This document shows, piece by piece, positions 43,788 through 49,126 of a DNA stretch of 64,000 nucleotides; position 1 is the stretch's first letter; each line of letters opens with the position of its first letter. Source of the DNA: Ammonifex degensii KC4 (GTDB lineage Bacteria; Bacillota; Desulfotomaculia; Desulfotomaculales; Ammonificaceae); the NCBI RefSeq assembly GCF_000024605.1, contig NC_013385.1, forward strand, positions 1,998,175-2,062,174, written 5' to 3'. The notes below the pieces were generated by a model. It saw nothing but the letters and a program-made list of their open reading frames with translations. It had not been told where the DNA came from and ran no database searches. A program made the position numbers and the translations under genes.

Positions 43788-44189
43788 TTAGCGGCCGCCG
43801 TTTATGACGTAATGCCAGGAAGCATAACGCCCGGCCACTATCTGGGTCAGCGCATGGTAGAAAAGAGCGTTAACCACCAGGTTGACCATTTGCTCGTCCA
43901 CATCCACGTTGTTACCGTCGGCGCGCATGCTGGTGAAGTAATCGCGTTCTACCCGGGGGGAGACCTTTTCTAGAGGAACGGGAGAGGGGAAATGGCGAGG
44001 ATCGGTGGTTCTTAAGGGCAAAGGAGCATTCAAGGCTCGCTTAAGCTCTTCTTCGAAGCGCACCACTCCCTTTTTGAAACCGGGGGTATCTACGTTGGCC
44101 AGGTTGTCCGCTATAACCCGCTGCCGCAAGGCGGCGGCATCCAGGGTCTTCAAAAGCGCCGTATGCACCGGGGAAGCAAAAAGCTCCAC
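43788..44189 (-). CDS. flgB: Proximal rod protein FlgB, first gene of the flagellar block
   Basis: GTG 44189 follows AAAGGGGAGGAGG by about ten bases and is preferred to ATG 44213, which would place that ribosome site inside the protein. The 133 residues include LLKTLDAAALRQRVIADNLANVDTPGFKKG and the C-terminal NNVDVDEQMVNLVVNALFYHALTQIVAGRY. All genes from here to 20838 run in the same direction with gaps of a few to tens of bases. Its promoter must lie in the 380-base region upstream. I could not identify a convincing sigma-A or sigma-28 site there. Confidence 0.95.
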   Translation of the reverse strand: MELFASPVHTALLKTLDAAALRQRVIADNLANVDTPGFKKGVVRFEEELKRALNAPLPLRTTDPRHFPSPVPLEKVSPRVERDYFTSMRADGNNVDVDEQMVNLVVNALFYHALTQIVAGRYASWHYVINGGR

Positions 44190-44376
44190 CGTGCCCTCCT
44201 CCCCTTTCGACATTTGCCGCTAATCGTTCAGCTGATCACCTTTAATTCGACACTTAATGACCAATTCCTTCTTGCGTTATGAATGCACTGCCAAAAAAAT
44301 TGGTGGGGTTAACTTGCACTGGCTTTCGGGACCAAGCTCCCGGAATACCAATTCTGGTGCTCCATGCTCCTCTGGG

Positions 44377-44415
44377 CGCTTAGCAATTACCCCTTTTTTG
44401 GGTAATTGCTAAGCG
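44377..44415. repeat. Perfect 16-bp inverted repeat with T6 loop
   Basis: CGCTTAGCAATTACCC (44377-44392) and its exact complement GGGTAATTGCTAAGCG (44400-44415) flank a 7-base loop of C plus six T. It lies in the 44190-44622 control region between divergent flgB and the GAF-LuxR gene. It may be a protein-binding site for a dimeric regulator or a very stable RNA hairpin. No T-run follows it on either strand. Confidence 0.8.
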
Positions 44416-44480
44416 GGAAACCGGTTGTTAAGATGGAGCTTGAGAAGAAAACTTAAAGAAATTAAAAGTTCCACCCCAAA

Positions 44481-44526
44481 GAGGAGGCATGAAGCCCTTT
44501 CATGCTTCCTCCTCCCCCCGTTTTTT
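44481..44526 (+). terminator. Intrinsic terminator on the plus strand with no upstream gene
   Basis: GAGGAGGCATGAA (44481-44493) pairs with TTCATGC-TTCCTCCTC (44499-44514) with a three-base bulge. Six T follow at 44521-44526 after CCCCCCG. This is a good Rho-independent terminator for transcripts reading to the right. All genes to the left run the other way, so it must end either a short unannotated transcript from 44214-44480 or spurious antisense transcription. Confidence 0.7.
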
Positions 44527-44540
44527 GATCCCCTTTTTCC

Positions 44541-44569
44541 TTGTCCCCCTCACCGGAATTTGCTATAGT
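44541..44569 (+). promoter_or_regulatory. Sigma-A promoter of the GAF-LuxR gene
   Basis: TTGTCC (44541-44546), a 17-base spacer and TATAGT (44564-44569) form a good promoter directly after the terminator. Transcription would start near 44576. That leaves a leader with GCGGAGGGG in front of TTG 44623. Confidence 0.75.
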
Positions 44570-44622: not shown

Positions 44623-45465
44623 TTGGCTCCATTTAGCAAGAAAAGCGGAATTTTCGCCGAAGATTACTTCCCTCTCCTTTGTTCTCCGGAGGAGCTGGAA
44701 GCCTCTTACGCCCGCTGCCGCGCCTGCGGCGTGCCGCAAGATTTAACCCGACCCCGAGAGATTTTGGATCCCGCTGCCTTGACACCCCGTCTTAAAGCCG
44801 CCGAACTCCTTCTATCCCTGGCTGAGAAGACAGTAAAGCCGATATGCACCACCGACTCCCAGCGGAACTTCATCTGCATCCTCTGCGACCCGGAACTGGT
44901 TGCCCTCAAGCTTTACGCCTCGCCCGAGATTCTGGAAGCCGCGGCAAAAGTGGGTGTAGTCCCAGGTACGGTCTTCACCGAGGAAAGCTGCGGTACCAAC
45001 GCCCTGGCCCTGGCACGGGAGCATAAGCGCCTCATTGCCATTCGCGGCGAGCAACATTTCTGCCAGTTCTTCCACAACTGGTGTTGCGTGGCAGCCCCCG
45101 TGCAGGGCCTCGGCAACTCCACCCTGGGGTACCTAGACATCTCCATGCACGCCGAAAGGGAGCTCGGCTTCGCCGTAACCTTCCTCAAAACGCTGCTTTT
45201 ACTTATGAAAAAAGAACTGGCGCTCGCCCGCGAGATCTCCTCGCTCCCGCTAGAGATCGAGCGCCGCCTTTCTCCTCGCGAAAGGGAAATATTGTTCCTT
45301 CTGCTCCGCCGGCTTACCAACGAAGAAATCGCCGCTTACCTCAACCTCAGTGTCTACACCGTAAAGACCTACCGCAAGTTCATCTACCGCAAGCTCGGTG
45401 TCAGCAGCTTCAACGAACTTCTGGCGAAATACCGAACCGCGGCAGAAAGGCTCGATTTAAACTAA
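44623..45465 (+). CDS. GAF-domain regulator with LuxR-type DNA-binding domain
   Basis: TTG 44623 follows GGAGGGG by six bases. The in-frame GTG at 44593 has no ribosome site. The 280-residue protein has an N-terminal sensor of the kind found in sigma-54 activators such as AcoR (SYARCRACGV; GAF core VFTEESCGTNALALA), rich in cysteine (CILCDPE, NWCC). Instead of an AAA+ domain it ends in a LuxR/GerE helix-turn-helix (LSPREREILFLLLRRLTNEEIAAYLNLSVYTVKTYRKFIYRKLGV, about 220-265). This combination suggests a ligand- or redox-responsive activator or repressor using sigma-A promoters. It is divergent from the flagellar block and shares its control region, so flagellar regulation is a reasonable guess. 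Confidence 0.88.
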   Translation: MAPFSKKSGIFAEDYFPLLCSPEELEASYARCRACGVPQDLTRPREILDPAALTPRLKAAELLLSLAEKTVKPICTTDSQRNFICILCDPELVALKLYASPEILEAAAKVGVVPGTVFTEESCGTNALALAREHKRLIAIRGEQHFCQFFHNWCCVAAPVQGLGNSTLGYLDISMHAERELGFAVTFLKTLLLLMKKELALAREISSLPLEIERRLSPREREILFLLLRRLTNEEIAAYLNLSVYTVKTYRKFIYRKLGVSSFNELLAKYRTAAERLDLN

Positions 45466-49029: not shown

Positions 49030-49126
49030 GGGAGTGGACGGATCCTGGTGGATCTCCTGGCCTTCAAAGCCAGCTGGCGGGCAGGAAAAAGTCCGCGGTA
49101 GGTTCGATTCCTACCCACTCCCGCCA
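49030..49126 (+). tRNA. selC: Selenocysteine tRNA (UCA anticodon)
   Basis: The 97-nt sequence has an 8-bp acceptor stem (GGGAGTGG at 49030-49037 with CCACTCCC at 49115-49122), discriminator G and encoded CCA. The anticodon arm CTGGC-CTTCAAA-GCCAG carries TCA at 49064-49066. A long extra arm (GCTGGCGGGCAGGAAAAAGTCCGC region) follows, then a T arm GTAGG-TTCGATT-CCTAC. The long acceptor, the large variable arm and UCA anticodon are diagnostic of tRNA-Sec. It shows that the organism reads UGA as selenocysteine in some mRNAs. SelA, SelB and SelD are not in the window. Confidence 0.96.

Follow-up and report, generated by a model that had tools for sequence, protein, structure and literature searches.

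Between flgB, the first gene of a flagellar operon of Ammonifex degensii, and the divergent gene of a LuxR-type regulator lies a spacer that carries two inverted repeats in succession. We asked whether these structures belong to an RNA, serve as sites for a protein, or have no function. A sequence-only reading had proposed a small RNA (roughly 44230–44526) or an insulated regulator site. All positions are those of the window, the 64-kb stretch of the A. degensii genome (2,157,067 bases) that was analysed. The spacer can be aligned end to end with that of A. thiophilus, the closest named relative, in a comparison of two Ammonifex genomes, and outside one conserved block the identity is ~80%. 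The long reading frames to the left of the spacer are minus-strand flagellar genes, and the earlier statement that no gene reads into the right-hand hairpin holds for long reading frames. Homologues of the regulator in other genera did not adjoin flgB at any locus examined (taken with 1.5 kb or 4 kb flanks, which are shorter at contig ends, e.g. ~500 bases for L062 from a MAG named Ammonifex sp. SURF_55). Viral contigs gave no match, and the plasmid collection had none to the spacer. Most probably we are dealing with an ordinary region of divergent control that contains a single conserved element; a small RNA is possible there and unproven.

The left structure is a perfect inverted repeat with 16-bp arms (44377–44392 and 44400–44415) around a 7-nt loop (44393–44399, CTTTTTT). 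It is as perfect as first described, it exceeds chance expectation and it occurs once in the genome. With loops of up to 20 nt allowed, it is the longest perfect inverted repeat of the window, and the longest in six dinucleotide shuffles of the window was 11. It is also the longest in a 264-kb sample of the same genome, where eight repeats had arms of at least 12 and the runner-up had 14. Its arms have no further genomic copy with fewer than three mismatches (14 matches, each with three mismatches, vs 8 for a reversed-pattern control), and membership of a repeat family was rejected on this ground. The 56-nt stretch containing the repeat folds with –28.6 kcal/mol (z –5.6). Neither side of the repeat has a T-run (GGAAACC on one, CCCAGAGG on the other), which rules it out as a terminator in either direction; T-runs do stand behind some other long repeats of the 264-kb sample, which look terminator-like.

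Conservation of the palindrome in relatives had been put forward as a check, and the perfect form is not kept in A. thiophilus. Six of 16 bases are changed in the left arm and 3 of 16 in the right, leaving 10 Watson-Crick and 2 G-U pairs of 16 on the plus strand and 4 broken ones (pair types assigned by eye); the changes include 2 compatible double changes (also by eye, from two sequences). The predicted fold weakens from –25.5 kcal/mol in A. degensii to –12.4 in A. thiophilus as plus-strand RNA, vs –6.7 there as minus-strand RNA. When an equal number of random substitutions was simulated, the outcome was as good or better in 5–7% of cases by energy and in 12–13% by pairs. The centre of the repeat (44387–44408), with possible operator half-sites TTACCC/GGGTAA, is identical over 22 nt in A. 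thiophilus; an identical run of at least 22 arises in 45% of permutations, so the conservation of this core is not significant. Just to the left, identity drops to 12/20 and 8/20 in 44347–44386. Seven other sites in the genome match TTACCC-N7-GGGTAA with one mismatch, each of them within an open frame 100 codons long or longer; these do not make an operator set, and the core was rejected as the operator of a regulon. With up to one mismatch, this core outnumbers its reversed control by 8 to 0 in the A. degensii genome, by 8 to 1 in that of A. thiophilus and by 45 to 12 over eight genomes of the family.

The left repeat, which lies beside an unconstrained stretch, may be functionless: either mutation created it, one arm having been copied onto its partner by template switching, or it is a structure in decay. 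We regard the chances of this as evenly balanced, and it is compatible with any reading of the right-hand block. The divergence of both arms with its four broken pairs, the low identity across 44347–44386, the missing T tails, the single genomic copy, the non-significant core and the location of every one-mismatch core site in a long open frame all speak for it. Template switching at quasipalindromes is moreover an established route of mutation (PMC7202029). The arms, perfect in A. degensii and imperfect in A. thiophilus, resemble the outcome of such a quasipalindrome-to-palindrome conversion, although here no outgroup aligns to give the direction of change. Against a lack of function, the plus strand of A. 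thiophilus retains the capacity for 12 of the 16 pairs (the 5–7% and 12–13% of the simulations), the loop and the inner six pairs are identical in both species, and across the family the core exceeds its reversed control in number of sites.

Because A. thiophilus lacks the perfect form of the palindrome, the alignment indicates that this repeat and the right-hand hairpin have different histories. The latter lies in a block (44464–44528) in which 64 of 65 bases are shared with A. thiophilus, the one substitution falling in the hairpin loop; the best 64-nt stretch has p = 0.0007 in a permutation test that treats positions as independent. The hairpin itself (plus strand, 44481–44511, GAGGAGGCATGAA / GCCCT / TTCATGCTTCCTC) has 13 pairs, one of them G-U, and its stem is invariant between the two species, i.e. 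in two sequences. A 61-nt stretch containing it folds with –20.7 kcal/mol (z –4.75). The hairpin is predicted at –19.7 kcal/mol on the plus strand and –15.8 on the minus strand, equally in both species; it is stronger as plus-strand RNA owing to the G-U pair, which both species have in the stem. Modelled in this way, the G-U pairs of the right hairpin, and of the left repeat in A. thiophilus, are a weak hint favouring plus-strand RNA. Conservation was put in proportion by a control on all spacers that measure 60 nt or more where the window can be aligned, with coding intervals picked by hand. The best 60-nt stretch had 59 matches in 4 of 11 spacers, including the present one and that with the tRNA-Sec gene. 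Functional elements of spacers can take the form of such 59/60 blocks between these two species, and the blocks do not by themselves signify RNA. The selenocysteine tRNA gene (Rfam tRNA-Sec, 49030–49122) is located between a FIST-domain gene and a gene for an apparent amino-acid transport binding protein (the latter judged by eye). The conserved right hairpin was present in 2 of 60 genomes, both of them Ammonifex.

Is the right hairpin a terminator? A good Rho-independent terminator facing right had been claimed. The hairpin and a run of six T (44521–44526, conserved in A. thiophilus) are real and on the same strand, but the nine C-rich nucleotides CTCCCCCCG stand between them (44512–44526 for both parts, plus strand). 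In Rho-independent terminators the T-run follows ~0–3 nt behind the stem. Here the stable hairpin that such a terminator needs on the transcribed strand, G+C pairs included, was found (–20.7 kcal/mol, z –4.75), and the T-run directly behind the stem was not (9 nt, or 7 nt when the stem is extended through a mismatch). In the 264-kb sample, by comparison, 32 hairpins were followed by a T5 stretch, and for 20 of them the gap was at most 5 nt. Many hairpin and T-run pairs, 12 of these 32, come from one 20-kb part of the genome (700001–720000). A terminator scan had no plus-strand entry at the right hairpin; it gave a weak minus-strand site inside it (44505–44487, 7 pairs, tail CTCCTCTTTG) and, over a 2-kb region, 3 matches vs a shuffle mean of 3.4, i.e. 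no excess. Since nine bases separate the stem from T6, the right hairpin is, as judged from its sequence, a poor terminator.

We then considered whether an RNA could run through the hairpin. The proposed 5′ end near 44230 found no support: the segment 44227–44274 is conserved and holds the putative minus-strand flgB promoter (see below), and no plus-strand promoter was found there. A strict promoter scan gave no plus-strand site upstream of the right hairpin. After the rule was relaxed, on account of this lack of a site in 44300–44480, a single plus-strand candidate appeared in that interval: TTGCTA-17-TAAGAT with a TG extension (44406–44434, predicted start ~44441, score 8/12), whose –35 lies inside the right arm of the left repeat. 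The extended –10 is conserved in A. thiophilus, where the –35 reads TTGGCG. Such an extended site occurred in 2.9% of shuffles, and a site of any kind in 41.7% if TG was not required. By its sequence, this candidate weak promoter could start an ~86-nt RNA or a leader of the regulator gene. The candidate RNA (~44441–44526, 86 nt) has z –3.4 and its A. thiophilus counterpart (89 nt) z –5.1. It matched no described RNA family: Rfam gave nothing above the gathering score at the locus, tRNA-Sec being the sole such match in the window, and below that score there were three chance-level microRNA matches, far under the cut-off.

Gram-positive C-rich small RNAs of the RsaE/RoxS type have unpaired C-rich stretches able to meet ribosome-binding sites. 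The candidate resembles them in being short, in having such stretches and in its stable hairpin; it differs in that it is a prediction from sequence, has no Rfam match and has no conserved target. One specific possibility is that the C-rich tail of an RNA from 44441–44526 binds the ribosome-binding site of flgB and thereby represses this gene. For A. degensii there is a 10-base match between CCTCCTCCCC and that site, the 10-mer has 8 occurrences in 264 kb (both strands; two of them are the block itself and flgB), and flgB ranked 2nd (whole RNA) or 3rd (tail) of 57 genes. In A. thiophilus, however, flgB ranked 30th or 31st of 56; with the unpaired tail alone it ranked 11th of 57 in A. degensii and 8th of 56 in A. 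thiophilus, and the stem ties up one half of the bases that would pair with the flgB site. These ranks are duplex energies without accessibility, with approximate gene starts. Repression of flgB by this pairing deserves scarcely any credence, and flgB, a good target in A. degensii and not in A. thiophilus, was rejected as a conserved target of a C-rich RNA. A wider proposal joins the pieces in another way: a genus-specific small RNA of ~86 nt, made from a promoter controlled by a protein binding the 39-bp dyad, would pair through its conserved C-rich tail with ribosome-binding sites. Flanked by a flagellar promoter of sigma-H/Spo0A type on one side and the LuxR-type regulator on the other, it would link sporulation-type signals, motility and the regulator via one spacer. 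We consider this unlikely.

The conserved block might instead act as DNA on its right-hand neighbour. The LuxR-type regulator gene (plus strand, 44623–45465) probably starts at TTG 44623 behind GGAGGGG, because this is roughly where similarity to homologues sets in and where homologue L030 carries a methionine. In the earlier reading it was called GAF-LuxR; a Pfam scan found the GerE domain and did not find the GAF part. The strict scan placed its putative promoter at 44541–44569 (plus strand, TTGTCC-17-TATAGT with a TG extension, start expected at ~44577), where A. thiophilus has TTGTAC-18-TATAGT, and the conserved block ends 12 bases before the –35. Elsewhere in the A. degensii genome, partial matches to the regulator occur at 1071156–1071470, 1076665–1077024 and 1184582–1185103, and others occur in further genomes of the family (G002, G004, G006 and G041), some with in-frame stops; the regulator family may multiply and decay.

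A DNA operator would be the 31-bp dyad, whose centre is ~81 bp upstream of the start predicted for the regulator. A dimeric protein, which may be the LuxR-type regulator, would bind it, with no RNA involved. The dyad is just upstream of the regulator's –35, it is conserved at the nucleotide level with both its flanks, and 59/60 stretches occur in other spacers too. In position and conservation, such an operator is almost as good a fit as an RNA. Three observations weigh against it. The dyad core is single in the genome at up to two mismatches (1 site, seen on both strands; 3 sites for the reversed control). No such dyad was found upstream of seven further regulator homologues (L061–L067, one of them a second A. 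thiophilus copy), where the longest repeat was 12 bp, in L065, with its own T-run. Finally, the dyad is mismatched in DNA where RNA makes a G-U pair. We rate an operator acting as DNA as a possibility, somewhat doubtful on balance. Since no second genomic site turned up at this level of mismatch, the right dyad core was rejected as a repeat or as the mark of a regulon.

On the other side of the spacer, flgB (minus strand, 43788–44213) probably starts at GTG 44186 behind GGGGAGGAGG, as judged by eye. We infer its promoter from AGGAATT-N14-GAAT (minus strand, 44245–44269, start near 44237), which we take to be of the sigma-H type (consensus AGGAWWT-N14-GAAT). The motif is present in A. degensii and A. 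thiophilus and is the sole strict match on either strand in 264 kb. A TGTCGAA sequence overlaps the –10 (minus strand, 44246–44252) and a second is at 44206–44212; this sequence, expected 0.033 times per 480 nt on both strands, resembles the Spo0A box (consensus TGNCGAA). Both spo0A and sigH were found above the cut-off in the A. degensii genome; flgB thus has a box of the Spo0A type in a genome with a spo0A gene. Since flgB transcription would start near 44237, and both structures lie upstream of both divergent promoters, neither would be part of the flgB mRNA.

The comparison of flgB promoters covered 30 loci, 7 of the Ammonifex family and 23 of other families; flgB was found in 7 of 8 family genomes, whose upstream regions were compared, and in 85 of 100 genomes of the order. 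Forward TGTCGAA boxes were found upstream of flgB in all 7 family loci. At the five family loci from other genera, AGGAWTT is combined with a TATAAT; they share the –35 with Ammonifex and lack the sigma-H –10. The full sigma-H consensus together with a sigma-H gene was accordingly found in A. degensii and A. thiophilus and not at the five TATAAT loci. Neither promoter form occurred at any of the 23 loci of other families (one with a shorter upstream region), where a forward box was found in 2 and a reverse box in 2. The arrangement resembles the fla/che promoter of Bacillus subtilis in having an operon promoter with upstream regulator sites. That promoter is of the sigma-A/sigma-D type, with upstream sites for regulators; the flgB promoter here is in contrast sigma-H-like, with Spo0A-box-like sites. 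A. degensii is described as a non-spore-former and A. thiophilus as a spore-former (PMC3533761). The sigma-H-like flgB promoter and the Spo0A-box-like sites are kept in both. A literature search found no paper joining Spo0A, flgB, sigma H and motility; we do not claim that sigma-H control of flgB is unpublished.

The minus strand of the conserved block also contains a 13-codon mini-ORF with a strong ribosome-binding site (44503–44462, MKGLHASSLGWNF); its A. thiophilus counterpart has 12 codons (MKRLHASSLGWN, by eye). It is preceded by GGGGGGAGGAGG-AAGC-ATG, and the hairpin encloses its start codon; if translated, it would encode a leader peptide ahead of flgB. Start, ribosome-binding site and frame are present in both species (in A. 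thiophilus by eye), and the conserved block ends within 2 codons of the end of the ORF. The putative flgB promoter, however, is downstream, so a separate minus-strand promoter would be needed and none was found upstream; the sole substitution alters an amino acid, and GGAGG-N4-9-ATG occurs at 0.44 per kb on both strands. We consider translation of the block very improbable.

How, then, might the spacer work? We tentatively favour, as one possibility among those weighed, a divergent control region with the hairpin as a pause or partial-termination element in cis and the left dyad as a site of control by a protein. In this scheme flgB would be driven leftwards from the sigma-H-like promoter at ~44269–44245 under the Spo0A-box-like sites, and the LuxR-type regulator rightwards from 44541–44569, and the block 44464–44528 would serve the regulator gene as a conserved element in cis. 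Weak transcription to the right, from a start near 44441, would run into the hairpin at 44481–44511, where RNA polymerase may pause or partly stop at the T-run, giving an ~86-nt RNA and less read-through into the regulator gene. A protein would control the weak promoter at the dyad 44377–44415, whose right arm contains the –35. The block shared at 64/65 in an otherwise 80%-identical spacer (p = 0.0007) favours this scheme, as do the folds that are stronger on the plus strand (the right hairpin and the A. thiophilus left repeat), the conserved extended –10 upstream of the hairpin with the conserved T6, the regulator's own conserved promoter directly downstream, and the placement of the flgB promoter by comparison within the family. 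Several points count against it. The gap of nine bases between stem and T-run is unlike most pairs (20 of 32 at 5 nt or less), and the weak promoter scores 8/12 under a relaxed rule, with sites in 41.7% of shuffles when TG is not required. The locus was found in two genomes among those searched, nothing there exceeds the Rfam gathering score, and neither dyad had a further site in a promoter-like place. Since 4 of 11 spacers have a 59/60 stretch, strong conservation is no specific sign of RNA. Whichever way it acts, the right hairpin is most likely a cis element of the regulator gene, either as a short leader or small RNA or as an operator. The earlier idea of a regulator site in the flagellar control region fits this in general, through the conserved hairpin block (64/65) 12 bases before the regulator –35; the palindrome is not conserved in its perfect form.

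The outcome is mostly a correction: of the two structures, conservation is strong in the inconspicuous hairpin and poorer in the striking palindrome. Transcription of the hairpin, if it occurs, would mean that a thermophile has a regulatory RNA or leader in its flagellar control region. The flgB promoter, a by-product of this analysis, may be a more useful result than the hairpins. It is sigma-H-like and accompanied by Spo0A-box-like sites in Ammonifex, although A. degensii is described as a non-spore-former, and a related promoter with such boxes is present in the rest of the family; with it, one could test directly whether sporulation regulators are linked to motility.
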